Shown piece after piece: positions 419-22,339 of a stretch of DNA of 64,000 nucleotides. Made by a program: the position numbers and the translations under genes. Origin of the DNA: Thermacetogenium phaeum DSM 12270. GTDB lineage: Bacteria; Bacillota; DSM-12270; Thermacetogeniales; Thermacetogeniaceae. Where the stretch lies: the NCBI RefSeq assembly GCF_000305935.1, contig NC_018870.1:1969001-2033000 (forward strand), read 5' to 3'. The notes beneath the pieces were generated by a model. That model saw only the letters and a program-made list of their open reading frames with translations, was not told the origin of the DNA and ran no database searches. The first letter of the stretch is position 1. Every line of letters begins with the position of its first letter.

Positions 419-747
419 CGTATTTCCGTCTGCCGGCAGCGCCTTAACCCGCACTCTGTAGTCCGGATGATTTTTATACACAATTCAGAAAAACAGCTTA
501 GACGGGTCAATGCATTTCCATCTTCATCTTCGGTCAGGCTGGCTACACCTACACTCTCGGCAAAGTTATCTTGAAAATCCTGCAGAAAATCGAGGTCGAT
601 AAGGTCAAGCAATTTCACGGTACTCTTCCCCACCATCCGTTCAGCCCCCCCTGAACCAAAACGGTTAATATTACCCACCGTGAATCTGAACCTCTGATAT
701 CGGATTTCTACGATAATTTGTAGGTTAGTAACAATTTTATCAATCAT
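361..747 (-). pseudogene. PocR-domain sensor protein, truncated by IS110
   Basis: The product starts by ATGA overlap with the acoR stop codon, so the two were translated together. The part from LLDLIDLDFLQDFQDNF through ASLTEDEDGNALTR to CSELCIK-like and TECGLRRCR resembles the start of a PocR ligand-binding domain, which binds small metabolites in regulators of diol and glycerol use. The frame then runs into the IS110 segment at about position 420 and stops at 361. Only the first ~110 residues are native. A start at the internal ATG (636) is possible, since a G-rich stretch precedes it. Location suggests it once fed a signal into AcoR control, but this is inference. Confidence 0.6.
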
Positions 748-2762
748 TTGTTTATGTTTATATTATAGATCTTCATCTTCCTGTAAATGGTGTTGCGGGA
801 GACCCCCAGCTCCCTGGCAACTCGGCTGATGTTGCCCCCATGTTTGGACAGCAGTTCCAGGATCCTCCTGCGCTCCCTCTCGGCCTGCATCCTTTTCCTC
901 TTCTCCCTCTCCTCCTCTATTCTTGCCACCTGCACAAATGAAGACGCCTCGCAGCTTTCCGAATGCCACGGCCTGTAAATTTCTTCAGGAAGGTATTCCG
1001 CCGTGATCCGACTCCCCTCCGCTATGCTCACCATCCTCTCCACCACATTCTGCAGCTCCCGAACATTCCCCGGCCAGTGGTACCGCTTCAGATGCTCCAC
1101 TACCTCCGGGTCTACGCCATCAAAACTCTTCCCCCATTCCCTGCTGATCCTCTCCAAAAAGTGTTTGAACAGTATCGGTATATCTTCAGGACGCTCCCGA
1201 AGCGGAGGAATATTAATCGTGATTACGTTCACCCGGTAGTAAAGATCTCGCCGAAAGTTCCCCTTCTCCACTTCACCCAGAAGATTCTTATTGGTGGCAC
1301 AGATAACCCGCACATCTACCGGAATCACCTTATCACCACCAAGACGGGTGAGCCTCCTCTCCTGCAATACCCGCAGCAGGGCTACCTGTTGCTCCAGCGG
1401 CATCTCCCCAATCTCATCCAGAAAAAGTGTACCCCCCGACGCCAGCTCAAATTTGCCGGGCCTACCCCCTCGCTTCGCTCCGGTAAATGCCCCTCCCTCG
1501 TATCCAAACAGCTCGCTGGCAATCAGCTCCCTCGGTATAGCCCCGCAGTTTACCGCCACAAAGGGACCCTTCCTGCGAGGACTGCGATTGTGAATGGCCT
1601 GCGCAAAAAGCTCCTTCCCCGTGCCGCTCTCCCCCTGCAGCAGTACGGTGGACATGCTCGATGCCGCCAATGACGCCATCCTGATCGCTTCCCGAATCCC
1701 CGCACTTTCCCCAATTATGTCCCTGAAACGAAATGTGGCCTGCGCCCCACTGAAACGGTTAACCAGCTTCTGCACCCGCTCAATCGGACGGAGGAGTATC
1801 ACGCCGCCCGTAAAGACACCTTGGTCATCTAAAATCGGCTTGCCTGATACCAAACAATGGATCAGCCCGTCTACGGAATCCACCATTACCTCCACTTCGT
1901 TAAAGGTATCACGACCAACGAGTAGCTTATCTATAAAATGAACACGGTTTCCCAGAATATCCCTCACCGGCTTACCTACCAAATCCCGACTTTTCCTACC
2001 GATGATCTGCTCCGACGCAGGGTTGAGCCGTATAATTATACCCCGAGCATCAAAAGCAATAACTCCTTCACACATTGTCTGAATAATGCCTGATAGTTGG
2101 CTGTTGGCAAGGGTAAGTTCCCGGTTCTTCTGCCGGATCCGCATCTGTTCCCGGATGGCTTCTCCCGCCGCCACTACCATACCCAGGGTATGCAGATGCG
2201 CTTCATTCGAGGGACCCGATAGATCTAGAATCCCCAATACGTTTCCGTTATGATCGAATATCGGAGTAGCCGAACAGGTCCAGGCATGGTGTTTGCGGCA
2301 GTAATGTTCCGGGCCTGATACCTGAATGGGCATTTTGAGTAACAGTGCAGTTCCGATAGCGTTGGTCCCAACAGCATCCTCGGTCCAGTTAGCCCCTTTA
2401 ATAAAATTGAGCCCAATCGCATCTTTTAGAGTATCCTCATCACCAAACGCTTCTAGAATATATCCCTGAGCGTCAGTCAGTATCACAATATAGCCGGATC
2501 CCTCAAAAAATTTATAAAGGTTGGTCATAAACGGCCTGGCGATCTCAATCAGATCCCTGTGCTTCTCACGCAGGAATTCCAATTCGGAGGAATCCAAAAC
2601 GTCATAACAGGTGCCGTCGTACGGATCAATTCCCGCCTGATAACACCTCTGCCATGATTCCGCAATTTCGGGCCGCAGCGTCTCAAATTCGAGTTCCCCC
2701 GTAGTCACAAACTTCATCCAAGCCAACGCAATGTCAGACAAAGCTCGGTGAGCTATAGACAT
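744..2762 (-). CDS. acoR: sigma-54-dependent transcriptional activator AcoR
   Basis: The 672-residue protein has the AcoR layout: an N-terminal GAF sensor domain (about 40-200), a PAS domain (about 220-330), an AAA+ domain with Walker A GESGTGKE, the sigma-54 contact motif GAFTGA, Walker [11 protein letters not shown], and a C-terminal Fis-type helix-turn-helix ([22 protein letters not shown]). The start MSIAHR was chosen because GGGAGG lies five bases before it; an upstream ATG (2804) lacks such a site. AcoR proteins activate acetoin catabolic operons from upstream sites. A good sigma-54 promoter lies ahead of the aco operon at 22298-22313, which fits. It is the first gene of a two-gene unit with the truncated PocR gene. 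Confidence 0.9.
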
Positions 2763-2799
2763 CTCCTCCCTCCCCCCTGTTAATAAGTTGCTCTTATTT

Positions 2800-2819
2800 G
2801 ACACTGTTCGACAAACAGC
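2800..2819. promoter_or_regulatory. small palindrome and TGACAC half-site upstream of acoR
   Basis: CTGTT-cgaca-AACAG (2805-2819) is a short dyad directly upstream of acoR, adjoining TGACAC (2800-2805). The same hexamer occurs twice upstream of the sigma-54 promoter near 22.45 kb. This may be an autoregulatory AcoR site; the evidence is only the shared short motif. Confidence 0.3.
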
Positions 2820-3930: not shown

Positions 3931-4929
3931 TCAAAACTCCCTCGCCCCAAGCCATCCCAGTAAATCCCGAACAAATGACCTCATCCCGGCGCCCTCGATA
4001 CAGCCGACCCTTTCTATGATGACATCTTTGCGGAAGGGAATACCCTGAAGGGATTCCGCAAGGGCTTCGACTAGGCCGCAGTCTATGGCATCCGAGTAGA
4101 TGACAGCTTTTTTAATAAGGCCTTCATCTATGCTGAGACAGAGCTCGATTTCTCCCCAGTCAAACCTGTTGCGCAAGGAAATGTCGAAGTCGGGGGTTTC
4201 GCCGTATCTCCACTCCCAGGACGCATACTTCTGGTACAGCCTGAGTATCTCCTCGGAGTCCCCGTCAAACTGAATTTCACGGGAATATTCCCCGTAGACT
4301 TGGGCAAAGCTCTCTTTTACGCTCTGCCGCACCGCTTCAATGGTGATTTCAGGATTCAAACGGGCCAGGTTGACCACCCTTGACCTTACCGATTTAACGT
4401 CAACACCTTTCGACGCTATTTTCTCCTTGGAGACCCGCAGGTAGCGGGCGAGTCTGTTCATGTCCGTGTCGACGAGAATGGTGCCGTGGTGATAGGCCGA
4501 TCTGGACTTGAAACAAAAGGCATTGCCCGAAAACTTTTTCCCCTCAACGGTGAGATCGTTGCGCCCCGAAAATTCCGCCTCTATTCCGAGGTTTCTTACG
4601 GCCAGCAGGAGAACGTGCAGTTGCCTTTCCAGATCGTACAGCTTCCTGTCCATGACGAATGTGAAATTCAGATTGCCGAGATCGTGATAAACCGCTCCGC
4701 CCCCGGATAGCCTGCGGGCAAGTTTGCCGCCTTCGCTTTCCAGCTCTTTACAGGCACACTCCTTCCAGGCATTTTGATGCTTGCCGATCACAACCGTGTT
4801 GTCGTTCTGCCACAAATACAAAATAATCTCATTCTCCGCCACATGATTCAACAAATACTCTTCAATAGCCAGGTTGTACCATGGGTCATAAGAACTTGAA
4901 CTTGCATACGCTGTTCTCAATGTTCCCAA
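3931..4929 (-). CDS. lplA: lipoate-protein ligase A
   Basis: The 332-residue protein has the standard LplA arrangement: a biotin/lipoate ligase fold with RRLSGGGAVYHD (residues about 92-103), the lysine-containing motif GRNDLTVEGKKFSGNA, HHGTILVD, and a C-terminal accessory domain (about 255-332). LplA activates lipoate with ATP and transfers it to a lysine of lipoyl domains. Of the three ligase homologues in this operon it is the most canonical and the most likely to act on free lipoate and AcoC. It sits ten bases after the isochorismatase-like gene. A 215-bp gap with no recognisable gene follows before the oxidoreductase remnant. Confidence 0.88.
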   Translation of the reverse strand: MGTLRTAYASSSSYDPWYNLAIEEYLLNHVAENEIILYLWQNDNTVVIGKHQNAWKECACKELESEGGKLARRLSGGGAVYHDLGNLNFTFVMDRKLYDLERQLHVLLLAVRNLGIEAEFSGRNDLTVEGKKFSGNAFCFKSRSAYHHGTILVDTDMNRLARYLRVSKEKIASKGVDVKSVRSRVVNLARLNPEITIEAVRQSVKESFAQVYGEYSREIQFDGDSEEILRLYQKYASWEWRYGETPDFDISLRNRFDWGEIELCLSIDEGLIKKAVIYSDAIDCGLVEALAESLQGIPFRKDVIIERVGCIEGAGMRSFVRDLLGWLGAREF

Positions 4930-4939
4930 CCCTCTTTTC

Positions 4940-5488
4940 TTATTTCAACAATGGTGCAATTGCCTTAAACTCGGGGGTTCCCGCCACTTTGAGCAGGTCA
5001 AAAACCACGGTCTCGGCATTTGTTATTACAGCGCCTTCTTCCCTCATTAATTCCAGACCGTTCTTGTGATTGTGCTTGAACCGGGAGCAAACGGCATCCT
5101 GCAATACGAAGACCTGATACCCGGCCATGATCAGATCCCTGACCGTCTGGAAAACACAGATATGGGTCTCGCTCCCCGCAACCAGGATCTGGTTCCGGTT
5201 GTATCCCTTTAGCACCTTTAAAGCATCCACCGAACAGGCCGAGAAACTGATCTTCTCCAGTTTAACGTGTTCTCCCAGGCTGCCCTTCACCTCCGCAACC
5301 GTGTACCCCAAACCTTTCGGATACTGCTCGGTGACAATAACCGGTATGTTCAATTTGTAACATGCCGCAAGCACCAGCTGCGTGTTTTTGTATACCTTCC
5401 CGGCCTGGTCCATCACCTTCATCAGATTTTCCTGCAGATCAATAATCATGAATACCGAATTGTCTGCCTTTAATAAATGTCTTGCCAT
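4940..5488 (-). CDS. isochorismatase-family cysteine hydrolase
   Basis: The 182-residue protein has the family catalytic residues: Asp in MIIDLQE, Lys in LEKISFSA and Cys in ETHICVFQT. Members hydrolyse isochorismate, nicotinamide or other amides, and many are uncharacterised. The ATG at 5488 was preferred over the GTG two codons upstream because of the better distance from AAGGGATGGGG. The neighbours (a metallo-beta-lactamase fold hydrolase upstream, lplA ten bases downstream) raise the chance of a role in freeing lipoyl or octanoyl amides. That is inference; the substrate is unknown. Confidence 0.75.
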   Translation of the reverse strand: MARHLLKADNSVFMIIDLQENLMKVMDQAGKVYKNTQLVLAACYKLNIPVIVTEQYPKGLGYTVAEVKGSLGEHVKLEKISFSACSVDALKVLKGYNRNQILVAGSETHICVFQTVRDLIMAGYQVFVLQDAVCSRFKHNHKNGLELMREEGAVITNAETVVFDLLKVAGTPEFKAIAPLLK

Positions 5489-5536
5489 AAACACCCCATC
5501 CCTTGCAAGCTGTTCCTTTGATATTTCACTCCGAAG

Positions 5537-6295
5537 TCATAAATAAAAAGTGTCTTCCTCCAGATACCGGCGCGAATGATTGTCAAATGCTCGATCGTGA
5601 CCCGGGATGATAATTCCCCGGAAACGGGATATCCGCCGGGCATTGTTCATAAACAGATCGGCGTTATAGTGAAGAATGCCAGCAGAGTTTTTTCTCCACA
5701 GGTCCCGATGGTACAGCGCATCTCCCGCAACCAGAACCGCACGACTCTTATCCTGTAGAATAACGGCGCGGCTGCCAATGGAATGCCCTGGAACAGATAC
5801 GACCGAAAGATTTTTCGGAAGCAGGGGCTGGTCTTCAAAAAACTCTAACTGTTCCGGATCGCCCACCAGTTTATCTGCAGGGTATGCTTCTGTAAGTTTT
5901 TTCAGCTCTCGGGCCAAGAGGATCTCCTGGTCTCGAACATGTCGCCCCATGCTGTGCAAGCCGGCGGCCGGGTCTTTGCTTTCCCGCAGCCTCGCGGCAA
6001 AGTCCCGTTCGTATGCCAGCTCCTGCCGGCTGATCAGAATGCGGGCATTTTTAAAATGACGATTGCCGCCAACGTGGTCCGGGTGGATGTGTGTATTGAT
6101 CACCAGGCTGAAATCCAACGGACTGTAGCCTGCCTCCTCCAGGCTTTCCAACAAGCCCGGATTGCCGTACATCCCAGTGTCGATGATCGCCAGCATCTTG
6201 TCATCCAATTCTACCACTGTAGATGTAACCGGAATATTCCTGATCAGGAGATTGTCGATCTCATGCAGAACGGTGGTTAAAGCAGTGACCTTCAT
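5537..6295 (-). CDS. metallo-beta-lactamase-fold hydrolase
   Basis: The 252-residue protein carries the binuclear metal motifs NTHIHPDHVGG, VPGHSIG, VAGDALYH and IIPGHDRAF of the metallo-beta-lactamase superfamily, in the order seen in glyoxalase II and lactonase-like enzymes. It overlaps the upstream radical SAM gene by ATGA, so the two are coupled. Thioester or ester hydrolysis is typical for this fold. A link to acyl or lipoyl thioesters would suit the context but nothing in the sequence proves it. No signal peptide is visible, so it acts in the cytoplasm. Confidence 0.8.
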   Translation of the reverse strand: MKVTALTTVLHEIDNLLIRNIPVTSTVVELDDKMLAIIDTGMYGNPGLLESLEEAGYSPLDFSLVINTHIHPDHVGGNRHFKNARILISRQELAYERDFAARLRESKDPAAGLHSMGRHVRDQEILLARELKKLTEAYPADKLVGDPEQLEFFEDQPLLPKNLSVVSVPGHSIGSRAVILQDKSRAVLVAGDALYHRDLWRKNSAGILHYNADLFMNNARRISRFRGIIIPGHDRAFDNHSRRYLEEDTFYL

Positions 6296-7293
6296 GCTTT
6301 AACCTCTTTTCCAATCATAGATGCGCCCTTTCCCCCGCCGCGTTTGCCCGCAACTATGCCCATCAGGCTGCAGCACTCTTCGGTGAAAATCACCTGCAGC
6401 CCTTTGTTGCGGGCATGTGTTATGGTTGCCTCATCTGGGTAGGCAATGGCGTTGACACCGCAGTCCACCGCCAGCTTCTCGATTTTCTGTTTGTACCTGC
6501 CGGGCGGCCTGGCGCAACCAAGGGTTAAAGGGATGTCGGGATTCAAGAGGCGGGCTGTGGCAAAGACCCTTGCGGTTTCCTCCACCGGCGGCGGCTCCAC
6601 TCCGGCCATTTCCGTTCCTTTCATCGGGGAGATGATAACGAGCACCACCGCCTGGGGGTCTGCCCGGCTGATCATTTCTAGGGCCTTCATCTCTCCCAGG
6701 AGGCGGCCGTAATGCAACCCGATAACCACATGGGGAGCAATGCTCAACCCCGCTTCCCGGCAGGTCAGCATCGCTTCCAGATAATCACTTGGCTTATGAG
6801 CCAGGTGATACACATCGCGAATCGTGCTTTCCTCACCGATCACATCCAGCAGAACCTGATCGACCCCCACTTCCCGCAGGGCAACTGCCGTTTCCCGCCG
6901 GATCAGCCCGCTGTGCACCAGAACCCGCAACCCCTTCCCTTTGGCGTACCCAATGGCATCGACGAAGGGGAGCAGGGGTACCTCCCCGCGTGAATCCGCC
7001 CCTCCGCTGACCAAGATACCCCGGCAGCCTTTCTCCATCAGGCGGTCCACGACGCGGCACATCTCTTCGGGCGTCGGTGTTGGGATCATGGTTTCCAGCA
7101 GTCTGCCGTTGCAGTGTGCGCAGCGGCAGGCGCACGCCTTACCGGTCACACTGAGGTTGACAAAGGAATTGCGGCGGTTGGCGAAAAACCTGTTCTGGTA
7201 ATGCTTTGCCCCAGGGGCCGAAAAAATGATCTGAGGTGCGTGATCCTTTCTGATCTCCCAGGCCTGCTGCATAAGGTTGCTAAGCCCCGGCAT
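6292..7293 (-). CDS. radical SAM protein, LipS1/LipS2-type lipoyl synthase partner
   Basis: The 333-residue protein has a radical SAM cluster motif in the form CACRCAHC (CX3CX2C) and a following TIM-barrel (ILVSGGADSRGEVPL, VDQVLLDVIGEE, VVIGLHYGR). The start MPGLSNL was chosen because GGGAGGGAG lies just before it; it then overlaps the previous radical SAM gene by 14 bases. Two adjacent radical SAM genes beside lipoate ligase and GcvH-like genes is the signature of the LipS1/LipS2 lipoyl synthase, which inserts two sulfurs into an octanoyl chain and is unrelated in arrangement to LipA. Which of the two subunits this is I cannot say. A BioB/HydE-like enzyme is the alternative. Confidence 0.7.
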   Translation of the reverse strand: MPGLSNLMQQAWEIRKDHAPQIIFSAPGAKHYQNRFFANRRNSFVNLSVTGKACACRCAHCNGRLLETMIPTPTPEEMCRVVDRLMEKGCRGILVSGGADSRGEVPLLPFVDAIGYAKGKGLRVLVHSGLIRRETAVALREVGVDQVLLDVIGEESTIRDVYHLAHKPSDYLEAMLTCREAGLSIAPHVVIGLHYGRLLGEMKALEMISRADPQAVVLVIISPMKGTEMAGVEPPPVEETARVFATARLLNPDIPLTLGCARPPGRYKQKIEKLAVDCGVNAIAYPDEATITHARNKGLQVIFTEECCSLMGIVAGKRGGGKGASMIGKEVKA

Positions 7294-8323
7294 GCGAAAC
7301 TCCCTCCCAGAACTGGGAGCGAATGATTTCGATATCCTCCGGTGTGGGAACAAAGGGATAGTTTCTCATAGGTTCGCCAGCCCTCTCGTTTCCGAAGGGC
7401 CTGTTGCAGGCAAGGAACCCGTCTTCTCCGGGACACCCGGAGGTCATGAACGCCAGGCCGTTATTGACATACGGCTCTATGTCGATACCATAATCGACTA
7501 TCTGTCCTTCCGGAGAAAAGCTGATGGCAGCTTCGGAGAGAATCCCTTCGTTGATCAGGTAACGGGCAAGCTGTACCCGGCGGTATTGCCCGAGGGGGGG
7601 TTGAGGGGAGTCCTCCATCAGGCTGCCGGCTTCTGGGAAAAAGGAGAACAGGTGAGTCAGGGCTCCCATCCGGTATGCTCTCGATATTGTCTTAACCATC
7701 TGTTCTTCCGTTTCACCGAGACCGACGATGAGGTGCACGCCCACTTTATGGGGGCCGAATACCTCTACGGCCTCGGCCACGGTATCCCAGTACCGGCTCC
7801 ACTTATGGGGGCCATTTACGGTGCGCCCGCGGTGCTTTTCGAAAAGCTCTTCGGTAGCAGCATCAATGGCGATATCCACCCGATCCGCCCCGGCATCCCT
7901 GATCATGGCCAGGTCATCCTTACCACGCATGACAGTGGGTGTAAGCAGCCCGCTGATGGGAAGACCCGTAGTTCTGAACCTGTCCGTAACAGTACAGGTA
8001 TCAACCACACTGCGGGGATGGGTAAGCATGGAGACGCACACCCGTTTAAAAGGGTGATTTCTCGTTTTTACCCGCTCAAGGATTTCATCCAGGGCATATG
8101 TCGGCCACTTTACACGGATAAAGGTTTTCCCGGTACTTACCTGCCGGTTGCGGGCAAGGCCGCAGTAGCTGCAAGCACCGCGGCAGCCGTCCTGATAGGT
8201 AAGCAGAATATTGAGGCAGGTGCACTTCGCCCCCCGGAGAAACCGGCCCTGCTCCAGTCCCAGGCAGATCGCTCCTGCCAGGCTGGTTTGTACGTATTCC
8301 GGGCTTTCCTTTATCATCTTCAT
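7280..8323 (-). CDS. radical SAM protein, LipS1/LipS2-type lipoyl synthase partner (BioB-like)
   Basis: The 347-residue protein resembles biotin synthase in layout. It has the cluster motif CRGACSYC (CX3CX2C) at about residues 47-54, then SGLLTPTVM, DRVDIAIDA and VHLIVGLGETEEQM. Additional cysteines (CTCLN before the motif, CPGEDGFLAC near the C-terminus) could bind a second, sacrificial iron-sulfur cluster, as sulfur-inserting radical SAM enzymes do. It lies upstream of and overlaps the other radical SAM gene. No biotin genes are nearby, while three lipoate ligases and two GcvH-like carriers are, so a lipoyl synthase role is favoured. A 290-bp leader with palindromes precedes it. Confidence 0.72.
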   Translation of the reverse strand: MKMIKESPEYVQTSLAGAICLGLEQGRFLRGAKCTCLNILLTYQDGCRGACSYCGLARNRQVSTGKTFIRVKWPTYALDEILERVKTRNHPFKRVCVSMLTHPRSVVDTCTVTDRFRTTGLPISGLLTPTVMRGKDDLAMIRDAGADRVDIAIDAATEELFEKHRGRTVNGPHKWSRYWDTVAEAVEVFGPHKVGVHLIVGLGETEEQMVKTISRAYRMGALTHLFSFFPEAGSLMEDSPQPPLGQYRRVQLARYLINEGILSEAAISFSPEGQIVDYGIDIEPYVNNGLAFMTSGCPGEDGFLACNRPFGNERAGEPMRNYPFVPTPEDIEIIRSQFWEGVSHAGA

Positions 8324-8438
8324 AAGAATTCCCCCCTTTATTTGTAATTACTGCTTATTGGTCTACCGCCTTGAAAATTATGTTCTTGCTGTTCTAAAAC
8401 CCGAGCCAACCGTCTTCTCTGAAGCCGTCCATGGCGCA

Positions 8439-8532
8439 GAGTCGTTCCGACTCCCCCACCCTCAACGACATTTTCAATAACAATCGTTCTGAACGAATGT
8501 TAAAGGGTAGAAGTTACCTTTGGGGAAAGGTC
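8439..8532. promoter_or_regulatory. cluster of palindromes in the leader of the radical SAM genes
   Basis: The 293-bp gap between the second lipoate ligase and the radical SAM pair is the longest gene-free stretch between two genes of the operon apart from the IS256 site. It holds three dyads: ACCTTT-gggg-AAAGGT (8517-8532), a 23-bp near-perfect palindrome AACAATCGTTC-T-GAACGAATGTT (8479-8501, 10 of 11 pairs) and GAGTCG-ttc-CGACTC (8439-8453). The middle one looks like a dimeric repressor site. The regulator is unknown. Confidence 0.45.
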
Positions 8533-8616
8533 ATTTCGGCCAACGTTAACTACTCCCCATCAGAAGAAGATAACAATCCAGCATATTGATCCATGAGCTG
8601 AAGAAGACGATTGTTT

Positions 8617-9723
8617 TCATTCTCTGTTGGTGTCGCAGGAGGCGGCGAGTTTGTCTGCCCTGGAGATAGCCGCATACAGTGCATCATAAAAATCTTCGGG
8701 CATGATACCCGGAATTTTCACTGCACGTTCTGCAAAAAAGGAGCACACATTCTGCCGCAGTTCGGACGGGTCGCTGGAAGAGTTTTTGAGAGACGCCTCA
8801 AGGTCAAGGATGCTCTGCTTCGGGTATGCGAAGAAGTCGCCGGTAATCATCACGCTTTTGATGCGGTGCCTGGTGCGGTCGAGCAGTAGTGACACCCGGA
8901 TCAGACCGCCCGGTGTTTTGTGATCCACCGTGACTAGGCTGCTGTCCTGCAGTTGCGATCTTTGACCGCGGACCCACTCCTCCGACCGAAAATAAGGCAG
9001 CTCCCGATTCAGCATCTCCTTTTCTCGGCCTGTCAAGTCTCCGGCCACCAGCTTAATGCCCAGCACCTCTGAGAAACCCTCCGCCATGGCCTTTTTGATC
9101 ACCGGCAGAGGCGGCAGGCAACCCAGCACCTCCCGCAGGCAGACGACCCTTTCCTTGAAACTCTGCACCTGCTTGTCATCAAGCTTCTTGATCGGTAGTT
9201 TAAGGCACTTGATCATGGTATCCACATCAAAGTCGGTTAAAACGGTGCCGTGAAAGAGGAGGGCATCGCCGATCTCTGTGCCCCCTGTGCCTGATATCTT
9301 CCTTCCGTCTACCTCAATGTCGTTCAGGGGACGGAATCGCGCAGTTACCCCCAGCTTTGCCAGGCCGGCTACGGCACTCTCACACAGCAAGCAGTACATA
9401 TCTTCGAGCTTTTTCGGTATGCCAGGTGTATCCTTGCGAGCAAAGACCTCCCACCCGAGTTGCCCCTCGTCCATATAAATCGCACCTCCACCGGAGATAC
9501 GTCGGTTGATGTCGATCCCGTGGCTGCGGCAGTATTCCTCCTCCACCTCGAGCTCCACCGCCTGGTGGTATCCCACCAGGGCGGCAGGTGGTGAAAACTG
9601 CAGAAAGTGAACAGTGTCCGGCACCAAGTTGCGGCTTCGGGCCGTCAGGATTACTTTCTCCAGCGCCATATTGTGAGCAGCGGACAGCGACCCGGTATCG
9701 AGCAGGCGCCAGACCTCGCTCAC
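8617..9723 (-). CDS. lipoate-protein ligase homologue
   Basis: The 368-residue protein belongs to the biotin/lipoate ligase fold: NRRISGGGAIYMDEGQLG (about 94-111), LNDIEVDGRKISGTGG with the expected lysine, and LLFHGTVLTDFDVD. It continues into a longer C-terminal region than the canonical ligase at 3931. Its start overlaps the stop of the GcvH-like gene by four bases, so carrier and ligase are coupled and may be a dedicated pair. It could attach octanoate or lipoate to that carrier, or be an amidotransferase of the LipM/LipL type. The motif GRKISG favours ligase or octanoyl transfer but cannot decide. Confidence 0.8.
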   Translation of the reverse strand: MSEVWRLLDTGSLSAAHNMALEKVILTARSRNLVPDTVHFLQFSPPAALVGYHQAVELEVEEEYCRSHGIDINRRISGGGAIYMDEGQLGWEVFARKDTPGIPKKLEDMYCLLCESAVAGLAKLGVTARFRPLNDIEVDGRKISGTGGTEIGDALLFHGTVLTDFDVDTMIKCLKLPIKKLDDKQVQSFKERVVCLREVLGCLPPLPVIKKAMAEGFSEVLGIKLVAGDLTGREKEMLNRELPYFRSEEWVRGQRSQLQDSSLVTVDHKTPGGLIRVSLLLDRTRHRIKSVMITGDFFAYPKQSILDLEASLKNSSSDPSELRQNVCSFFAERAVKIPGIMPEDFYDALYAAISRADKLAASCDTNRE

Positions 9724-10148
9724 GGGGTAACCCCTTCTTCCACTTCAAGCCTTTCCTGCTGCCGGATCCACTCCCTGTAGGCCTCCGGGGTCATCAGGCT
9801 CTCAAGCTCCGAAGGATCCTGGAGCCTGACTTTCATAAGCCAGCCGGTGGTATATGGAGCCCTGTTAACTTCCCCCGGGCTGGTAGTGGCCTTGGAGTTG
9901 GTCTCGGTAATTTCACCCGTTACCGGCAGAATCAGCTTGCCCACCCATTTGCCTGATTCGATGGAACCGAAACTTTCTCCCCGCCTGACAATGGTACCCA
10001 CAGGCGGTAGTTCCAGATAAATTACGTCGCCGGTAGTGCTCTGCCCGTAATGGGTCAGCCCGATTACGGCCTCATTACCATTGACTTTTACCCAGTAATT
10101 GTTCTTGTCGTAGAGAAGGTCTTCGGGAACAAGCCACTGTTCACCCAT
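9720..10148 (-). CDS. GcvH-family lipoyl carrier protein (second copy)
   Basis: The 142-residue protein has the GcvH fold pattern (YWVKVNGNEAVIGLTHYGQ, GDVIYLELP, VGTIVRRGESFGSIESGKW, LPVTGEI). The expected lipoylated lysine is K67 in ESGKW; classical glycine cleavage H proteins have ESVKA here. No glycine cleavage P or T genes are nearby. It is flanked on both sides by lipoate ligase homologues, overlapping one by ATGA. It is probably an assembly platform for octanoyl or lipoyl groups, or a mobile electron carrier like the lipoate-binding protein of the sulfur-oxidising Hdr-like system. The latter is inference. Confidence 0.8.
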   Translation of the reverse strand: MGEQWLVPEDLLYDKNNYWVKVNGNEAVIGLTHYGQSTTGDVIYLELPPVGTIVRRGESFGSIESGKWVGKLILPVTGEITETNSKATTSPGEVNRAPYTTGWLMKVRLQDPSELESLMTPEAYREWIRQQERLEVEEGVTP

Positions 10149-10167
10149 ATTGCATCCTCCTAAACAT

Positions 10168-11139
10168 TTAAATATTTACAGGGAACTCTGCCAGCAAATC
10201 CTCACGCCATTCACACCCGATATACGCCTCCCAGAGCCCTTTGTTCAGCTCATTGCGCCCGATAACTTCCAGATCAGCAATCTTGCCGTCCCTGACCACT
10301 GCCAGGAGGCGTTCATCCCCGCCGTAGGGTCGCTCTATCAGATAGACGCCCTCGGCAATCTTGACCTTGCGGTAGGGCAGCTTGCGACCGGGGAGGGACA
10401 GCCAGTCAGAACTGGCAAGGCGGGCACCGATTCTGCTCGCCCTTTCTAGCAATTCGGTGTCGGGCAGGCGGGGGCTCAGTCTGCCAAATTCCCTGGCAAA
10501 CTCCTCGATCAGGGCGGCAGCCAGATCTGCATAGCCGGGCAGATCGTCAAGCCAGTCGGCCAGCACGGTCATGTACTCGCGCATCGCTATTTGTAGGCGC
10601 CGTCTGAAAGTACTACCGGGAACACGCAGCACTCTGCTCATGGTCCTGAAGTCAAAATCGATCAGGATGTTGCCCACGTAGGCCACGCACTGCCCGATGT
10701 CTCCGGCGGCATTGCCCGAGCACTTACGTCCATCCGCCACAATATCCGCCGGTGCTTTCAGTTCGGCCGGCACACCAAAATGCCGGTATAGGCGGATAGC
10801 CGGTTTAAGAAATTTCTTGTAAAAGCGGTCCCGGCGCAGGGGAAGAAGAGGGTTATCCTTATGCAGCACGAGCTGAAAGAAGACCTGGTTGCTGTCTAGG
10901 TAAACCACCCCGCCTCCGGTCTCGCGGCGCAGGAGAGGAATGCCCCGCAGCCGGCAATACTCCTGGTCTATCTCCTGCTGCAGGTCATCGTGGAGGCCCA
11001 GACAGACGTAGGGACTGGTGGGGTAGCAGATGATCAATCCCTCCCGGCCCAGGTAGGCCAGCGCATGGTAAAGGGCCTGGGATTCCCACCAGCTGACTCC
11101 CCCCAGGTTGTAGAGATCCACTGCCCCCCACCTCCCCAA
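10168..11139 (-). CDS. lipoate-protein ligase homologue
   Basis: The 323-residue protein keeps the ligase core: LLRRETGGGVVYLDSNQ (about 95-111; a Thr replaces the usual Ser before the triple glycine), APADIVADGRKCSGNAAG with the expected lysine, and AYVGNILIDFDF. It shares little beyond these motifs with the ligases at 3931 and 8617, so the three are old paralogues and not recent duplicates. It lies 19 bases before the second GcvH-like gene and eight bases after the DUF6506 gene. It may be specific for one of the GcvH-like carriers, since in some bacteria special ligases load only such carriers. Confidence 0.8.
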   Translation of the reverse strand: MGRWGAVDLYNLGGVSWWESQALYHALAYLGREGLIICYPTSPYVCLGLHDDLQQEIDQEYCRLRGIPLLRRETGGGVVYLDSNQVFFQLVLHKDNPLLPLRRDRFYKKFLKPAIRLYRHFGVPAELKAPADIVADGRKCSGNAAGDIGQCVAYVGNILIDFDFRTMSRVLRVPGSTFRRRLQIAMREYMTVLADWLDDLPGYADLAAALIEEFAREFGRLSPRLPDTELLERASRIGARLASSDWLSLPGRKLPYRKVKIAEGVYLIERPYGGDERLLAVVRDGKIADLEVIGRNELNKGLWEAYIGCEWREDLLAEFPVNI

Positions 11140-11147
11140 ATTTCATG

Positions 11148-11453
11148 TTACCGGAAAAGTTCGTCCCCGCTCTTGAAGTCCAGGCCGGGATGGTTGTCGA
11201 AACGAACTACTCCTACTACAGCCTTATTTTTAACCGCTTTCTTCACTGCTGCGGTGCCCTCGATGCCAAAACCTCCGCACAGTTCGATGGCACTCACACC
11301 CTGTGCGACCAGTTCCTCGGCCGCCTTTGCCGCAGTCCGATAGTCCTTGACCCCAACCACGGTCAACTCCACTACAGGAGTCTCCACTACCGCCCGGTGT
11401 TTCCCGGCATCCGCTTCGGGAGCCACGAAAATAAACGCCGCCTTCAATGCCAT
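11148..11453 (-). CDS. DUF6506 family protein
   Basis: The 101-residue protein looks like the DUF6506 family: it has ALKAAFIFVAPEAD, an ELTVVGVKDY segment, then VSAIELCGGFGIEGTA and VGVVRFDNHPG. The function is not known. No signal peptide or membrane segment is visible. It lies between the GlcF-like gene (31 bases away) and a lipoate ligase gene (eight bases away) and is clearly part of the operon. A single cysteine in LCGG is the only obvious reactive residue. Its presence with the lipoyl genes is a hint of a shared role, nothing more. Confidence 0.6.
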   Translation of the reverse strand: MALKAAFIFVAPEADAGKHRAVVETPVVELTVVGVKDYRTAAKAAEELVAQGVSAIELCGGFGIEGTAAVKKAVKNKAVVGVVRFDNHPGLDFKSGDELFR

Positions 11454-11484: not shown

Positions 11485-12654
11485 TCAACCTATAGCTTCC
11501 AGAAGTAATTCACTGATATCCATAACCCTTACGGGCAAACCAGCCTTGCGAACGGCAGCACTGAGCATCTGTTCACACTGCTGGCAAGCGGAAACCACGA
11601 TGCTGGCCTTGGTTTCCTTGATCTCCTGTATCCGCAGCTTGGTGATCTCTGCGGCCAGATCGGCATCCACGCTCTGGAGGTTGCCGCCTCCCCCGCAGCA
11701 GAGAGAATCTTCCCTATTGTGATCCAGTTCGACGAATTCAATTCCAGGGATGCTCCGGATAATTTCGCGGGGAGCGTCGTAGACACCGCTGTTACGCCCC
11801 AGGTCACAAGGGTCGTGGTAGGTCACCACCTCATCCATTTCCTGCAGTTCCAGACGACCATCCTTAACAAAACGGGCCAGGTATTCGGTGGTGTGCAGGA
11901 TCTCCAGGTCGTATCCCGCCAGTTCGCTCAGACATTCGTGTTTCCAGACGTGGTAGCAGGAGGCACAGCTTGCCACCAGGGTGTGGATGTCCAGTTCCTT
12001 GATTTTGGATACGTTGTGCTTGATAAACTCCCTGGCGTCATCGGCAAACCCGGTGCTCAACAGGGGAAAACCGCAGCACCATTCCTCCCCGCCCATGGTG
12101 GTAAAGTCAACTCCGGCCTCCATCAGCAACTGAGTGACGGCGAGAGGAATCTGGGCCGCCTGGGGGAAGAAGGAGGATACGCAGCCCACAAAATAGCACA
12201 CCTCCGCGCCCTTCTTGAGTTCCAGGCCTTCGGGTTCCTCATCCAGGTCCTGGGCCCATTCCAGCCGGTCGTCGTTGCTGAAGGTAGAAATGTTCTTGTG
12301 GGCCAGGAGGTTTTCCCGGATGGTGTTATAAGCCTCTGGTCCTTTGCCCAGTCCGGCAATGCGCTTGCGAAGCTCCAACCAGAGGGTTCTCGTATCAATA
12401 GAGGTTGAGCAGGCACGTGCGCAGGCCCCGCACAGGGTGCACTGGGCCACCCGCCGGATAAACTCCTCAGACAGGGCTTTTTCGTTACCCTTGGCAAAGA
12501 TGCCCTTAGCCAGGCTTATCTTCCCCCTGGGACTGGCCGACTCCCAGCCAAGCACCTGGTAGACTGGGCAGGAGCTCCGACAGTAGCCGCAGCGCCCGCA
12601 GATCAGGGCTTCTCTTTCGAGGGTTGTGAAAAGGCTCTTGCCTTCTGATGTCAT
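11485..12654 (-). CDS. GlcF/HdrD-like iron-sulfur oxidoreductase subunit
   Basis: The 389-residue protein has two 4Fe-4S motifs near the N-terminus (CGRCGYCRSSCP and CTLCGACARACS) and two cysteine-rich CCG domains (CYFVGC with EEWCCGFPL and CASCYHVW; then HDPCDLGRNSGVY, SLCCGGGGNL, SACQQCEQM). CCG domains bind special clusters that reduce disulfides in heterodisulfide reductase HdrB/HdrD, and they occur in glycolate and lactate oxidases (GlcF, LutA). It overlaps the flavin subunit gene by four bases, so the two form one complex. In this operon, a disulfide-active subunit next to lipoyl proteins suggests electron exchange with dihydrolipoyl groups. Confidence 0.85.
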   Translation of the reverse strand: MTSEGKSLFTTLEREALICGRCGYCRSSCPVYQVLGWESASPRGKISLAKGIFAKGNEKALSEEFIRRVAQCTLCGACARACSTSIDTRTLWLELRKRIAGLGKGPEAYNTIRENLLAHKNISTFSNDDRLEWAQDLDEEPEGLELKKGAEVCYFVGCVSSFFPQAAQIPLAVTQLLMEAGVDFTTMGGEEWCCGFPLLSTGFADDAREFIKHNVSKIKELDIHTLVASCASCYHVWKHECLSELAGYDLEILHTTEYLARFVKDGRLELQEMDEVVTYHDPCDLGRNSGVYDAPREIIRSIPGIEFVELDHNREDSLCCGGGGNLQSVDADLAAEITKLRIQEIKETKASIVVSACQQCEQMLSAAVRKAGLPVRVMDISELLLEAIG

Positions 12655-14129
12655 CGGCGCACACTCCCTCTCATAAATCTCCTAATCCCGGCCATGACGT
12701 TCATCCCTAAGCTGAAATTAAAGGGGTTCAGCATCGGATGCCATTTATACAGCTTCCCCGGATTCATGATTCCCTTGGGATCCAGCTTCTTTTTCCTGGT
12801 CCGCAACTGCTCGAGCTCCGAGGCCTTGAAGATGCGCCCAAGATAGGGGGTGTTCCACAGCCCTACACCGTAAGGGTAACCACCGTGCCGGTATCCCACG
12901 TCCTGGATCTTTTTCACCAAGCTGAGATCCATGACATACTCGAAGACCCTTGTTTCATCCGCAAAGAACATGGTCATGATGATAATCCTCTCGGGGGTAG
13001 CCACATGCCCGTAGGAGCACATTTCCCGCCCGTACCGCCCGGACAGCCTCTTGATGTCGGAGAGGTAGCTTTCAAGCCTGGAGACCGGCAGGAAGACCTC
13101 TCCTCCCACTTCGGAGGGCCCGCTTCTTTTAAGTTTGAGGGACTTGTATCTCTCTTCCCATTCCATTTCGGCGACATCTCCGGGCAGGAAAGAAACCGCA
13201 GTGTTATCTGCAACAAGACTGGCAATCATTTCCTCTGCCTGGTTGAGTTCGTCCTCTGGGCCTTCATAATCGATTGCTAGCAGGCACCCCGAATCTACGT
13301 TACCCGGTGAAATTCCCTGCCTGAACATGGCTTTCACGCACGCTTCATCGGTAAAATGCAGGTTGTAGGGAGTAATTTTCGCATCCTTGACAGCAGTCAA
13401 TACTCCGGCCATTTCAGACAGTTCGCGGGAGTACAGCAGAAAGTGCTTCATTGGTGTTCGTTTGCGAATTTCGATTTTAAGCTTCGTAATTATCCCTAGA
13501 GTTCCCTCGGAAGCCGCAAACCAGGCCAGTGGCGGATCTGTATCAGCGGTCACCTGCCGGATCTCTCCACCCGGTAAAACTACCTCCGCCCATTTAACCT
13601 GGGACAGCAGTGAGCCGTACTTCAGGCTGCCAATACCGTACCCCATCATGCAGAGCCAGCCGGCAATGCTCGATGCGGGGGCGCTGCTGGGTACGGATTT
13701 CGGAGCATAGCCCTTGGCGTTCAGGTATCGTTCCAGTTCGCTCCAGGTGGTCCCCGCTTTCACCGTGACCGTCATCCCATCCTCGTCCAGTTCCAAAACC
13801 CCTTTGAGCAGGTTCAGGTCGATCACGATGCCTCCCTTGGCGGGCACGGAGTCGAAGTAAACGGTGGAGGCGCCCGACCGGGGGGTTACCGGGATGCCCG
13901 CGGCCCCGGCCAGGCACAGGATCTCCGCAACCTCTTCCGCCCCGGTGGGACGCACCACCAGATCCGGCACGGTTTTAAACAGCGGGTCCACCAGTAGCGC
14001 CGGCACCGGGGCCAGATCACGGCTGTAAAGGACGCACTCAAATCGAGCATCGGTGGCCCGCTCGCCGCATAGCTCTTTTATCTGCCGCAGCGCTTCACTC
14101 TTTTTCACGCCTATCTCCATCCTCTCCAA
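12651..14129 (-). CDS. FAD-linked oxidase, GlcD-like flavin subunit
   Basis: The 492-residue protein has an FAD-binding type 4 domain (about 50-225, with VVRPTGAEEVAEIL, VTPRSGAS, FAASEGTLGIIT) and the C-terminal FAD-linked oxidase domain ending in LDPKGIMNPGKL. Relatives are glycolate oxidase GlcD, D-lactate dehydrogenases and alkyl-DHAP synthase. There is no EtfAB gene next to it, so it is not the electron-confurcating lactate dehydrogenase arrangement. It is co-translated with the GlcF/HdrD-like subunit and lies 35 bases after a GcvH-like gene. The donor could be lactate or glycolate, or the dihydrolipoyl arm of the carrier; the sequence alone cannot tell. Confidence 0.82.
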   Translation of the reverse strand: MERMEIGVKKSEALRQIKELCGERATDARFECVLYSRDLAPVPALLVDPLFKTVPDLVVRPTGAEEVAEILCLAGAAGIPVTPRSGASTVYFDSVPAKGGIVIDLNLLKGVLELDEDGMTVTVKAGTTWSELERYLNAKGYAPKSVPSSAPASSIAGWLCMMGYGIGSLKYGSLLSQVKWAEVVLPGGEIRQVTADTDPPLAWFAASEGTLGIITKLKIEIRKRTPMKHFLLYSRELSEMAGVLTAVKDAKITPYNLHFTDEACVKAMFRQGISPGNVDSGCLLAIDYEGPEDELNQAEEMIASLVADNTAVSFLPGDVAEMEWEERYKSLKLKRSGPSEVGGEVFLPVSRLESYLSDIKRLSGRYGREMCSYGHVATPERIIIMTMFFADETRVFEYVMDLSLVKKIQDVGYRHGGYPYGVGLWNTPYLGRIFKASELEQLRTRKKKLDPKGIMNPGKLYKWHPMLNPFNFSLGMNVMAGIRRFMRGSVRR

Positions 14130-14164: not shown

Positions 14165-14587
14165 CTATTTGGCATGTTTCTCTATCTCTTCCTTAAGCCA
14201 TGGCTCCACCTGATCGCCGTGCAGCAACCGGTTTAACCCTTCGGACAGGTTATCCGGCTCCATTACGGCAACCCACCCCTGCCCGTAGGGATCGGCGTTC
14301 AAAGGCTTGGGATTGGCAGCCAGATCCTTGTTGACTTCGATTATCTTCCCGCTCATCGGAACCACAACCTTCCCCGCCCATTTGCCAGACTGAAGTGTGA
14401 TGAGGGTCTTTCCTTCTTCCATCACTTTTCCTGTCCGGGGTAAACGAATAAAAGTGATTTCGCCGGCAAGTTGCTGCATGAAATCGGTGATCCCGATACG
14501 GATCCGACTCCCTTCAACTTTAACCCAGGCGTGGTCGGTCGTATAATAAAGTTCATCCGGCATTTCATACTTATCGATCCTGGCCAT
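14165..14587 (-). CDS. GcvH-family lipoyl carrier protein (first copy)
   Basis: The 140-residue protein follows the H-protein pattern: YYTTDHAWVKVEGSRIRIGIT, LAGEITFIRLP, a lipoyl turn QSGKW with K69 as the expected modified residue, VVPMSGKI, and DPYGQGWVAVMEP. As in the second copy, SGKW replaces the ESVKA of classical glycine cleavage H proteins. It lies between the AhpD-like gene (31 bases upstream) and the flavin oxidase gene (35 bases downstream). No GcvP or GcvT is present, so a glycine cleavage role is unlikely. A mobile lipoyl carrier between AcoC and the flavin/iron-sulfur pair is my preferred inference. Confidence 0.82.
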   Translation of the reverse strand: MARIDKYEMPDELYYTTDHAWVKVEGSRIRIGITDFMQQLAGEITFIRLPRTGKVMEEGKTLITLQSGKWAGKVVVPMSGKIIEVNKDLAANPKPLNADPYGQGWVAVMEPDNLSEGLNRLLHGDQVEPWLKEEIEKHAK

Positions 14588-14618: not shown

Positions 14619-14963
14619 TTATTCCTCAAAGGCGTCCAAAGCTTTCATAACCACAGCCGCCAGGTGAGCCATGGCTGGGGAACCGCCAAAGGCCACGGCC
14701 ACCGCGGCCGCTTCCAGGATCTCCTCCCGGCTGGCTCCCTCAGCCAGGGCCTGCTTAACGTGGATGTTCATACAGTATTCGCACTTAGCGTAGATGGAGA
14801 TAGCCAGCCCGATGAGCTCCTTGTACTTCCGCTCCAGTTCACCTTCCACGTAGGCTGCCTGATCCATCTGCACAAAAGCAGCCGATAGCTCCGGGGCCTC
14901 GTCCTCCAGCTGCACCATGCGTTCACCCAGTTCGGCCAGTACTTCCTTCGGATCTTTATCCAT
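14619..14963 (-). CDS. AhpD/carboxymuconolactone decarboxylase-family thiol protein
   Basis: The 114-residue protein has the AhpD-like active site KCEYCMNIH (C61, C64, H68) with the helical segment that follows (ASREEILEAAAVAVAFGG). AhpD proteins relay electrons between a lipoyl domain of a 2-oxoacid dehydrogenase E2 and peroxiredoxin. Other family members are decarboxylases, but the CxxC-x3-H site argues for thiol-disulfide chemistry. It follows acoC by 52 bases and precedes a GcvH-like carrier gene by 31, so it is well placed to accept electrons from dihydrolipoyl groups. No peroxiredoxin gene is in the operon. Confidence 0.8.
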   Translation of the reverse strand: MDKDPKEVLAELGERMVQLEDEAPELSAAFVQMDQAAYVEGELERKYKELIGLAISIYAKCEYCMNIHVKQALAEGASREEILEAAAVAVAFGGSPAMAHLAAVVMKALDAFEE

Positions 14964-15015: not shown

Positions 15016-16173
15016 CTAAATAAATATGCGGTATGGTTTTTCGATCAGATCGATCAAGACCTTTAAAAACTCGGCAGCAGGGGCGCCGTCAATCACTCGG
15101 TGATCAAAAGCCAGGGAGAGTCCCAGCATAGGCCGGATGGTGATCTCCCCGTTCACCACAACCGGCCGCTCTACCGTACGGCCGACACCCAGTATAGCCG
15201 ACTCCGGCTGGTTGATGATCGGGGTGAACCAGTCCACCGAGCCGTAGGCTCCCAGGTTGGTAACGGTGAAGGTGCCGCCGGTCATCTCGTCCGGTTCTAG
15301 CTTGTTGCGGCGTGCGCGTTTGGCCAGATCCCTGATTTCCTTATTAACCTGGTAGATGTCCTTTTGGTCGGCGTTTCTAACAACCGGGACAATCAGCCCA
15401 TCCGGCAGGGCCACCGCCACCCCGATGTTGATATCCTGAAGCACCTTGATCTCTTCCCCGTCTAGGGTGGCATTCACCGCCGGCTTGAGTTCTAAAGCCT
15501 TTGCAACAGCCTTAACCAAAAAGGCAGTAATAGAAACCTTGTCTTTTTCCTTAACCCCCTCATTGATCTCTCGGCGGAGGGCGATGATGCCTGAAAGGTC
15601 CACACTGGTATGGTGGGTAACCTTGGGCGCTACCGCCCAGCTATGGGCCATGTTATCGCCAATAGCCCGTCTCATGCCTTCGTAAGGAATAACCTCAAGG
15701 GTCGGCCGGTCATCCGCCGCAGGAATCCCCTCGGCGATGGCCCTCTCCACATCTTCTCTGGTGATGCGCCCCTCAGGACCCGTTCCTTTAATACGGGTGT
15801 AATCGATACCGTTTTCTTCTGCCAGCTTCCGGGCAGCCGGGGAGATCTTTATCCTCTCACCTGCTGCCGGTGCGGCCGAAGCAGCAGCTGCCGTCCCGCC
15901 AGGCGCCTCTGCAAGCAGGGCGGATATGTCCTCGCCTTCGGAGCCAATCACCCCAAGCAAAGCCCCAATCGGAAGCTTCGCACCTTTTGAAGCGACAATT
16001 TTAAGCAGTATGCCTTCTTCCGGCGCTTCCACTGTGTTGGTGATCTTTTCGGTCATGATCTCCACGACCGGCTCCCCTTTTTTAACGCGATCCCCTTCGT
16101 TTTTCAGCCATTTGGCGACAGTGCCCGTCTTCATGGACAGTCCTAATTTAGGCATGGTTATCTGTGCTGCCAT
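15016..16173 (-). CDS. acoC: acetoin dehydrogenase E2, dihydrolipoyl acetyltransferase
   Basis: The 385-residue protein has one lipoyl domain (about 3-78, lipoylated lysine K43 in TEKITN), an Ala/Pro-rich linker, a peripheral subunit-binding domain (about 109-146, ISPAARKLAEENGID with GPEGRITREDV) and the catalytic domain ending in LAFDHRVIDGAPAAEFL with the conserved His and Asp. It transfers the acetyl group from lipoate to CoA. The binding domain normally holds E3 (dihydrolipoamide dehydrogenase), which is not encoded in this window. It follows acoX by 15 bases with a strong AGGAGG-type ribosome site. Confidence 0.9.
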   Translation of the reverse strand: MAAQITMPKLGLSMKTGTVAKWLKNEGDRVKKGEPVVEIMTEKITNTVEAPEEGILLKIVASKGAKLPIGALLGVIGSEGEDISALLAEAPGGTAAAASAAPAAGERIKISPAARKLAEENGIDYTRIKGTGPEGRITREDVERAIAEGIPAADDRPTLEVIPYEGMRRAIGDNMAHSWAVAPKVTHHTSVDLSGIIALRREINEGVKEKDKVSITAFLVKAVAKALELKPAVNATLDGEEIKVLQDINIGVAVALPDGLIVPVVRNADQKDIYQVNKEIRDLAKRARRNKLEPDEMTGGTFTVTNLGAYGSVDWFTPIINQPESAILGVGRTVERPVVVNGEITIRPMLGLSLAFDHRVIDGAPAAEFLKVLIDLIEKPYRIFI

Positions 16174-22313: not shown

Positions 22314-22339
22314 CAAAGCCAAATCGAACAATGAAAAAA

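Follow-up and report, generated by a model that had tools for sequence, protein, structure and literature searches.

Why should a single gene run encode three lipoate ligases? The question is raised by Thermacetogenium phaeum DSM 12270, where a stretch of 64,000 nucleotides (contig NC_018870.1, positions 1,969,001 to 2,033,000; hereafter the window, with positions counted from its first letter) holds three open reading frames (ORFs) of this family, LigA, LigB and LigC, all on the minus strand of one putative operon and all over the PF21948 cut-off. A sequence-only reading of the same DNA had noticed these three paralogues in one operon and proposed that they share labour as free lipoate salvage, octanoyl loading and carrier-to-E2 transfer. 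We found that a split of labour is supported, since lipoyl carriers track the ligases, and that this particular split is not favoured. From the comparison of loci, division of labour by acceptor rather than by chemistry looks real, and we give about an even chance to its specific form, in which there is one attachment enzyme per lipoyl acceptor (AcoC, carrier a and carrier b). The genes that carry the argument are the following.

3931..4929, minus strand: LigA, canonical LplA-type lipoate-protein ligase (RRLSGGG, YHD, HHG) by PF21948, TIGR00545 and tree; proposed acceptor AcoC, from gene context, besides general salvage
6292..7353, minus strand: LipS1, probable half of a two-part lipoyl synthase; NCBIfam score at the cut-off
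7280..8323, minus strand: LipS2, putative other half; NCBIfam score below cut-off, paired with LipS1 in relatives
8617..9723, minus strand: LigB, predicted Lpl(AB)-type ligase (RRISGGG), sLpl(AB) by context, from domains, tree and carrier profiles; proposed acceptor carrier b
9720..10148, minus strand: carrier b, GcvH-like lipoyl protein with ESGKWVG (PF01597, motif, tree), published as gcvH2 (mapped by gene order)
10168..11139, minus strand: LigC, of a divergent ligase clade (RRETGGG, YLD, YVG), from PF21948, tree, fold and carrier profiles; proposed acceptor carrier a
14165..14587, minus strand: carrier a, GcvH-like lipoyl protein with QSGKWAG (PF01597, motif, tree), published as gcvH3 (mapped by gene order)
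15016..16173, minus strand: AcoC, E2 acyltransferase with a lipoyl domain; several E2 models matched, none over cut-off

The paralogues are old, as had been proposed: they fall in three separate clades, with pairwise identities of 25% over 289, 27% over 233 and 31% over 179 columns. These alignments show more than the core motifs, to which the likeness had been said to be confined. PF21948 scores were 219.6 bits for LigA, 166.4 for LigB and 113.3 for LigC (cut-off 27), and the fourth and last PF21948 protein of the genome, encoded in the glycine-cleavage (gcv) operon, groups with LigA. In a tree of 91 rows, where 10 gcv-operon rows and 26 LigC rows were random draws, support was 100 for LigC, 95 for LigB, 99 for the gcv-operon group and 100 for the LplA group of LigA and the fourth protein (all tree supports given here come from a quick method). 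Comparing 174 ligase rows, we found RR[LT]SGGG and HHG in the LigA/LplA group, RR[ILVM][TS]GGG with mostly YWD or FWD (YMD in two) in LigB, mostly RRE[VT]GGG, YLD and xVG in LigC, and mostly RR[PL]TGGR and QHG in the gcv-operon proteins, which we take to be LipM-like. Five rows labelled LigB by phmmer sit in the LigC clade (L269, L273, L280, L282, L283; L numbers denote the loci compared, G numbers genomes, and G000 is T. phaeum). Separately, the LipS-linked ligases of L239, L263 and L270, each beside a carrier gene, form a third clade outside LigB and LigC (support 100, three rows).

LigA does look like a salvage-type LplA, scoring 364.2 bits with TIGR00545 (cut-off 280) and 260 bits with the E. 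coli LplA structure, in keeping with the free lipoate salvage part of the earlier proposal. Its match to the octanoyl-[GcvH] transferase model NF053589 is weak (22.2 bits, cut-off 400), and LigB and LigC have no match to that model at E 0.001. LigB passes the cut-offs of PF21948 and PF10437 (26.0 bits, cut-off 24), stays below that of NCBIfam LplB (56.3 bits, cut-off 65) and shows similarity to both chains of 3r07, a two-part ligase. With LplA and LplB domains together and with LipS2 and LipS1 adjoining, as in LipS1/S2-coupled sLpl(AB), LigB reads as an Lpl(AB)-type ligase and, by context, as sLpl(AB).

The sequence-only reading had overlooked LipS1 and LipS2 (6292-8323), two radical-SAM genes between LigB and LigA that were recognised with NCBIfam models. 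LipS1 reached 229.8 bits on its own (cut-off 230) and 230.5 bits, over the cut-off, in the genome search; LipS2 remained below (221 bits, cut-off 270), and its presumed function rests on the pairing with LipS1 and LigB. No LipA match over the cut-off was found in the genome, the best one scoring 25.8 bits, far below; LipS1/S2 are therefore apparently its sole lipoyl synthase. The weak match is a radical-SAM protein (G000:C1:2793860-2795107, L029) that by reading resembles BioB/PylB-type enzymes. There is no LipB among the four PF21948 proteins, no search with LipB or LipM models having been made; a genomic LipB would have shown there, because a relative's LipB scores 156 bits with PF21948.

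LipS1 was over the cut-off in 73 of 398 genomes sampled from the phylum. We took 100 LipS1 loci, and their phmmer neighbours separated 20 of the window's kind from 80 others. None of the 20 had gcvT or gcvP in view, against 72 of the 80, and 13 of the 20 had a GcvH-like protein, with GlcD and a GlcF-like CCG protein or with HdrCBA (L101, L102, L103) and sometimes with acetoin dehydrogenase (aco) genes. We also observed genomes with two LipS1/S2 sets, L115 and L074 in G056, L113 and L089 in G097, and L126 and L081 in G311; an RR[PL]TGGR/QHG-type protein accompanies one set, which is part of a gcv operon, and the other set is of the window's kind.

Which acceptors, then, are at hand? The sequence-only reading had correctly placed the second GcvH-like gene, carrier b, which overlaps LigB by 4 bases and has LigC 19 bases away on its opposite side. 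Published names would assign both carriers to glycine cleavage, and it is true that both match PF01597 and that carrier b exceeds the TIGR00527 cut-off (120.2 bits, cut-off 115.85; carrier a, at 102.5, is below). However, the gcv operon has its own GcvH (three GcvH-like proteins and one borderline, at 22.3 bits, were found in the genome), and the lysine context sets the carriers apart. The motif S[VM]K, a rule derived in this analysis and not from print, was present in 66 of 66 GcvH-like proteins from other loci and in 0 of 22 from window-kind loci, which have [ST]GKW, SAKW or ASKW at the lysine; it was also absent from all 73 GcvH-like proteins in 80 LigC loci. A tree of 77 rows, built on few columns from a random 22 of the 66 with the genome's own GcvH, all 22 window-kind proteins and 32 of the 73, parted 23 gcv rows from 54 carriers by one branch (99). 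Having neither gcv linkage nor S[VM]K, the two carriers lack both marks of a GcvH used here. Lysine motif and tree thus argue against the names gcvH2 (9720-10148) and gcvH3 (14165-14587), which seem ill-suited, and make a role in glycine cleavage extremely improbable.

A second reading of the carriers takes them as sulfur-binding, the operon being a variant of the sHdr sulfur-oxidation system. In L101, L102 and L103, the same set of LigB, LipT, LipS2 and LipS1 has HdrCBA and a carrier as neighbours, and DsrE/TusA-like genes (names by reading) lie near L102 and L103. Against this, the window carriers contain no cysteine, whereas LbpA has two conserved ones, with some archaeal exceptions according to the available part of PMC6067878; the carriers of L101-L103 are cysteine-free as well, and instead of HdrABC the window shows a GlcD-CCG pair together with aco genes. 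We consider this reading quite improbable. Membership of the carriers in LbpA was rejected for the missing cysteines, and by sequence carriers a and b are typical of neither H proteins nor LbpA.

We then asked whether the number of carriers follows the number of ligases. Of the 15 loci with both LigB and LigC (G000, G011, G056, G097, G141, G015, G335, L206, L209, L211, L212, L214, L233, L253, L267), 13 had at least two carriers, compared to 1 of 36 single-ligase loci (Fisher P 2.9e-9; the P values are only a guide, as related genomes are not independent samples). The single-ligase loci were 27 LigC-only loci of at least 15 kb (one carrier in 19, two in 1, none in 7) and nine LigB-only genomes with a carrier in view, each with one (G124 being a 3.6 kb contig). 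Left out of the count were duplicates (L204, L210, L217, L219), short loci (L205, L207, L213, L268, L271), the five re-assigned loci named above, five LigB-only loci without a carrier, and L239, L263 and L270, which have two carriers each and a second ligase of another clade. Counting these last three as LigB plus LigC gives 16 of 18, and tables with omitted loci restored gave P values from 1.6e-9 to 5.3e-9 with the picture unchanged.

The kind of carrier follows too. We compared the carriers of single-ligase loci against two profiles, one made of 17 a-type carriers and the other of 15 b-type ones. All nine LigB-only carriers scored closer to the b profile, and of 37 LigC-only rows, among which overlapping ORFs of L273 are counted, 27 scored closer to the a profile (Mann-Whitney P 5e-6). 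L239 and L263 each have a b-like carrier next to the LipS-linked ligase and an a-like carrier upstream of LigC. As the ligases present go along with how many carriers a locus has and of which kind, acceptor specificity is indicated. Assigning a ligase to a carrier by gene order alone is undecidable and was dropped.

For the third enzyme, we looked at those aco loci that also have GlcD, GlcF and a carrier. The third attachment enzyme is LigA in G000, G011, G015 and G203, LipB is found in its place in eight (G056, G097, L206, L208, L209, L211, L214, L233), and none was seen in G141; LipB also occurs in L269 and L283, aco loci with an E3 gene. Because LipB occupies the position of LigA in these related loci, we suggest that LigA serves AcoC.

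From the observed gene content, families, clades, motif split and ligase-carrier co-occurrence we infer activities, acceptor assignments and a direction of electron flow as follows. The operon would combine an acetoin dehydrogenase (AcoA, AcoB, AcoX, AcoC) without an adjacent E3 with a lipoyl-carrier redox module of two atypical GcvH-like carriers, a CCG iron-sulfur protein and a GlcD-like flavoprotein, and would thus offer three local lipoyl acceptors. LigB with LipS1/S2 would serve carrier b, LigC carrier a, and LigA would serve AcoC besides salvaging lipoate, in place of the relatives' LipB; LipS1/S2 would add the sulfurs wherever octanoate is attached, since no LipA is over the cut-off in the genome. 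The carriers would probably swap electrons with the CCG protein as dithiol/disulfide. A precedent for dedicated ligases exists, those encoded with hdr-lbpA clusters being specific for LbpA (PMC6067878, available part).

Several observations weigh against one enzyme per acceptor. G015 and G335 have LigB and LigC with a single carrier in view, as has the uncounted L271 (14 kb), and in L280 one ligase, of the LigC clade, goes with two carriers. No carrier was seen at 7 of the 27 LigC-only loci nor in view at the five LigB-only loci L077, L078, L081, L086 and L096. Ten of the 37 LigC-only carrier rows were nearer b, and since carrier b lies between LigB and LigC, adjacency fits either as its partner. 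Moreover, in T. phaeum proteomics gcvH1, gcvH2 and gcvH3 were not abundant under the conditions tested (PMC12674515, available part).

The position of carrier b is also a point for the division by chemistry, in which LigA would salvage free lipoate, LigB would load octanoate and LigC would transfer octanoyl or lipoyl groups from a GcvH-like carrier to AcoC like LipL. LigA is LplA-like, LigC lies near acoA in G056, G097 and G141, and the lysine loop partly lost from the window LigC might be needed less by a transferase. Yet no LipL-type model matched LigB or LigC at E 0.001, nor any of 44 LigC members, and the LigC fold is nearer to ligases than to LipB. An AlphaFold model of LigC (predicted local distance difference test score, pLDDT, 94.1) had a lipoate ligase as best Foldseek match (336 columns, E 2.9e-20), followed by 2p5i, another family member (7e-13), and LipB (5.5e-12). 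On this model LigC is a protein of two-domain lipoate ligase fold; the root-mean-square deviation of 11.6 to the best ligase across both domains indicates that the domain arrangement differs. Finally, no aco gene was in view at 60 of the 80 LigC loci (among E2 genes, only those of aco were looked for), so that carrier-to-E2 transfer is not evident as a general role of LigC. Taken together, these results leave the division by chemistry unlikely. We also rejected the idea that LigC is LipL/LipM-like or dead for want of the HHG/YHD histidines, as LigB rows mostly lack them too and the fold is that of a ligase.

Is the window LigC, then, a working enzyme? It stays under all NCBIfam cut-offs and is not among the 24 of 44 LigC members matched by the LplB model. 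It has lost most of the lysine-rich loop of its relatives, and its C-terminal part is unmatched by the Pfam small-domain model; on both counts it may be weak or inactive, which again counts against a dedicated ligase for carrier a. The same features are what a partial redundancy would predict, with LigC degenerating and its work done by LigB or LigA. Such decay is of low probability in our view, given that LigC is in frame and keeps its operon position in G000, G011 and G015 (58-87% identity), that the fold model is of high pLDDT, and that the catalytic lysine column is kept in 76 of 77 LigC rows.

We also looked at LigC beyond T. phaeum, in the best 80 of 126 relatives from a contig scan; contig ends truncate many of these loci, and they were scored without a random control region. 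These loci come from Bacillota, Desulfobacterota, Chloroflexota, Planctomycetota, Armatimonadota, Asgard archaea and others. Within 10 kb of LigC we found a GcvH-like gene in 56 of 80, a GlcF- or HdrB-like (CCG) gene in 59 and both in 51, as well as aco genes in 20, LipS genes in 14 and LipA in 16. A search of the open-licence literature showed, among the matches listed, no title or abstract start dealing with the LigC clade or with a lipoyl carrier accompanied by GlcD and a CCG protein. What may surprise a specialist is that the LigC clade is tied to lipoyl-carrier/CCG loci in different phyla. The partners differ between loci. L239 (Anaerolinea sp.) has a carrier, small and large NiFe hydrogenase subunits, a CCG protein and LigC, and L222 and L243 (Desulfobacterota) have a multihaem cytochrome with a NarI-like part, a carrier, a CCG protein and LigC. 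As a separate observation, LigC occurs with a CCG-type protein and an ESSKFVG or ESSKYVG carrier in the Anaerolineae/Chloroflexi loci L239 (2930-11053), L223, L227, L228, L232, L236, L241, L244, L255, L257 and L263; hydrogenase genes between carrier, CCG and LigC were checked in L239 only.

The remaining genes of the putative redox module and acetoin dehydrogenase, all between LigC and the upstream end of the run, are these.

11485..12654, minus strand: CCG-domain iron-sulfur protein (TfrB 180.9 bits, GlcF 76.9 bits, both below cut-off)
12651..14129, minus strand: GlcD-like FAD protein (GlcD 135.5 bits, below cut-off)
14619..14963, minus strand: AhpD-like protein (NCBIfam match)
16189..17199, minus strand: AcoX-like (match to ATP-NAD kinase N-terminal domain)
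17272..18243, minus strand: probable AcoB, E1 beta, named by reading and context; in the available part of PMC12674515, pyruvate dehydrogenase E1 beta
18266..19228, minus strand: probable AcoA, E1 alpha, named by reading and context; in the same source, pyruvate dehydrogenase E1 alpha

The CCG protein scores best to TfrB (cut-off 385), then to LdhH (157.9 bits), and with its TfrB score the higher one was rejected as glycolate oxidase GlcF. Nine of 10 further CCG proteins likewise had TfrB as top match, with LdhH almost level for one of them, and that of L239 had DsrK, all under cut-off. TfrB is the dithiol-oxidising subunit of thiol:fumarate reductase; the window protein resembles it in this best score and differs in being below the cut-off and in having a GlcD-like partner. 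No E3 (Lpd) match was found in the operon, which thus lacks the E3 that goes with E1 and E2 in an acetoin dehydrogenase; the only E3 over the cut-off in the genome lies inside the gcv operon, so that the window carriers may be an E3 substitute, although that E3 could also act in trans. Among 25 aco loci of the phylum sample, E3 was present in 9, carriers in 8 and neither in 8, never both (Fisher two-sided 0.022, with rows related and some loci cut by contig ends). E3 and carriers occur together in 7 of 20 aco-bearing LigC loci (L243, L246, L248, L258, L259, L269, L283; Desulfobacterota and Chloroflexota); the carriers are therefore not simply an E3 substitute, and E3 replacement was dropped as the main claim.

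A wider reading, which we hold to be possible though rather doubtful, is that of a general lipoyl-carrier redox module: an SGKW-type GcvH-like carrier would form, together with a CCG protein and a ligase of its own (LigC or LigB), a dithiol/disulfide relay for different enzymes, such as acetoin dehydrogenase, the NiFe hydrogenase of L239 or the multihaem cytochrome and membrane proteins of L222 and L243. Here electrons would pass from dihydrolipoyl-AcoC to the carriers and on to the TfrB-like protein and flavoprotein, maybe standing in for E3. Hdr and GlcD-CCG modules look interchangeable, because L101 together with L168 sets Hdr genes next to acoABXC, DUF6506 and AhpD; the order HdrC-HdrB-HdrA, carrier, LigB, LipT, LipS2, LipS1 was observed in L101, L102, L103 and L168. 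In mycobacteria, a lipoyl E2 passes electrons to AhpD, and by analogy electron uptake by the AhpD-like protein from a lipoyl E2 would fit a thiol relay at the window locus. The AhpD-like gene (14619-14963, adjoining AcoC) occurs in 9 of 80 LigC loci.

We compared the locus with known systems, as far as the available parts of the papers describe them. The sLpl(AB)-LipS1/S2 pathway (PMC10332631) is similar in the Lpl(AB) architecture, in LigB beside LipS2/LipS1 and in the LipT of several relatives. It differs from the window, which has a second ligase (LigC), two carriers without the LbpA cysteines and acetoin genes instead of shdr; in addition, no LipT was found in the loci of G000, G011 and G015. 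As the LipS1/S2-coupled set of Tanabe et al. 2023 took clusters with a single ligase gene (PMC10332631), two-ligase clusters fall outside it. With sHdr-LbpA (Cao et al. 2018, PMC6067878) the window shares the grouping of a dedicated ligase with a GcvH-like carrier and a CCG protein at a single locus; it differs by the cysteine-free carriers, by GlcD and the TfrB-like CCG protein replacing the Hdr-like complex, and by the linkage to acetoin dehydrogenase. Passage of dihydrolipoyl electrons to NAD is discussed for sHdr in the same paper.

The acetoin cluster of Pelobacter carbinolicus (PMC3543383) likewise has aco genes, acoX and lipoylation genes, among them acoL (E3, from the name acoABCSL), acoS and lipB, whereas the window operon has no E3, LipA or LipB and instead ligases, LipS1/S2, carriers and the CCG protein. 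For LarG of that organism, encoded near the Act complex, a role as disulfide electron carrier has been proposed (PMC3543383), and the idea of electron transport by a GcvH-like lipoyl protein is common to both cases; LarG was proposed with E3 and the Act complex, and the available text describes no ligase or CCG module with it. Growth of T. phaeum on acetoin has been published (PMC3551663, available part), and the word acetoin is absent from the main text of PMC12674515.

If the proposed scheme is true, lipoate would belong to a larger family of protein-bound disulfide carriers with one loading enzyme apiece, and would have a role beyond 2-oxoacid and glycine enzymes and sulfur oxidation. It would also explain several lipoate ligases in some genomes, assign a function to the LigC clade, set right the T. 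phaeum names gcvH2 and gcvH3, and offer a testable way for acetoin dehydrogenase to run without its own E3.

Concerning the gene run as a whole, it extends on the minus strand, without a change of strand, from 19249-20307 to 3931-4929 in the order Adh, AcoA, AcoB, AcoX, AcoC, AhpD-like, carrier a, GlcD-like, CCG, DUF6506, LigC, carrier b, LigB, LipS2, LipS1, metallo-hydrolase, isochorismatase-like, LigA. Genes overlap or lie at most 72 bases apart, the sole exception being 293 bases between LipS2 and LigB, and the run is a putative operon; promoter and terminator scans gave counts near those of shuffles. The order agrees with the operon around Tph_c19540-19650 (PMC12674515, available part). 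The features still to be named are the following.

4940..5494, minus strand: isochorismatase-family hydrolase (profile match)
5537..6295, minus strand: metallo-beta-lactamase-fold hydrolase, present in G015 too (profile match)
11148..11453, minus strand: DUF6506 protein, in 10 of 80 LigC loci (profile match)
19249..20307, minus strand: zinc alcohol-dehydrogenase-like, possible 2,3-butanediol dehydrogenase (profile match)
744..2804, minus strand: AcoR-like sigma-54 activator, downstream of the run (profile match; AcoR by reading)

Further downstream, the ORF at 3317-3715 (minus strand) holds only the C-terminal end of an aldehyde:ferredoxin oxidoreductase (profile positions 257-385 of 385) and looks like a gene remnant; a ThiS/MoaD-like gene (3006-3293) comes after it. 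G011 has a full 600-residue aldehyde:ferredoxin oxidoreductase near its LigA (L080, 5744-7546). At the other end of the run, a transposase-like ORF (by reading; 20428-21660, minus strand) lies between the adh-like gene and a Lin0512-family gene (21864-22331), and since these two genes adjoin in G011 (L026), the transposase-like element was probably inserted here.

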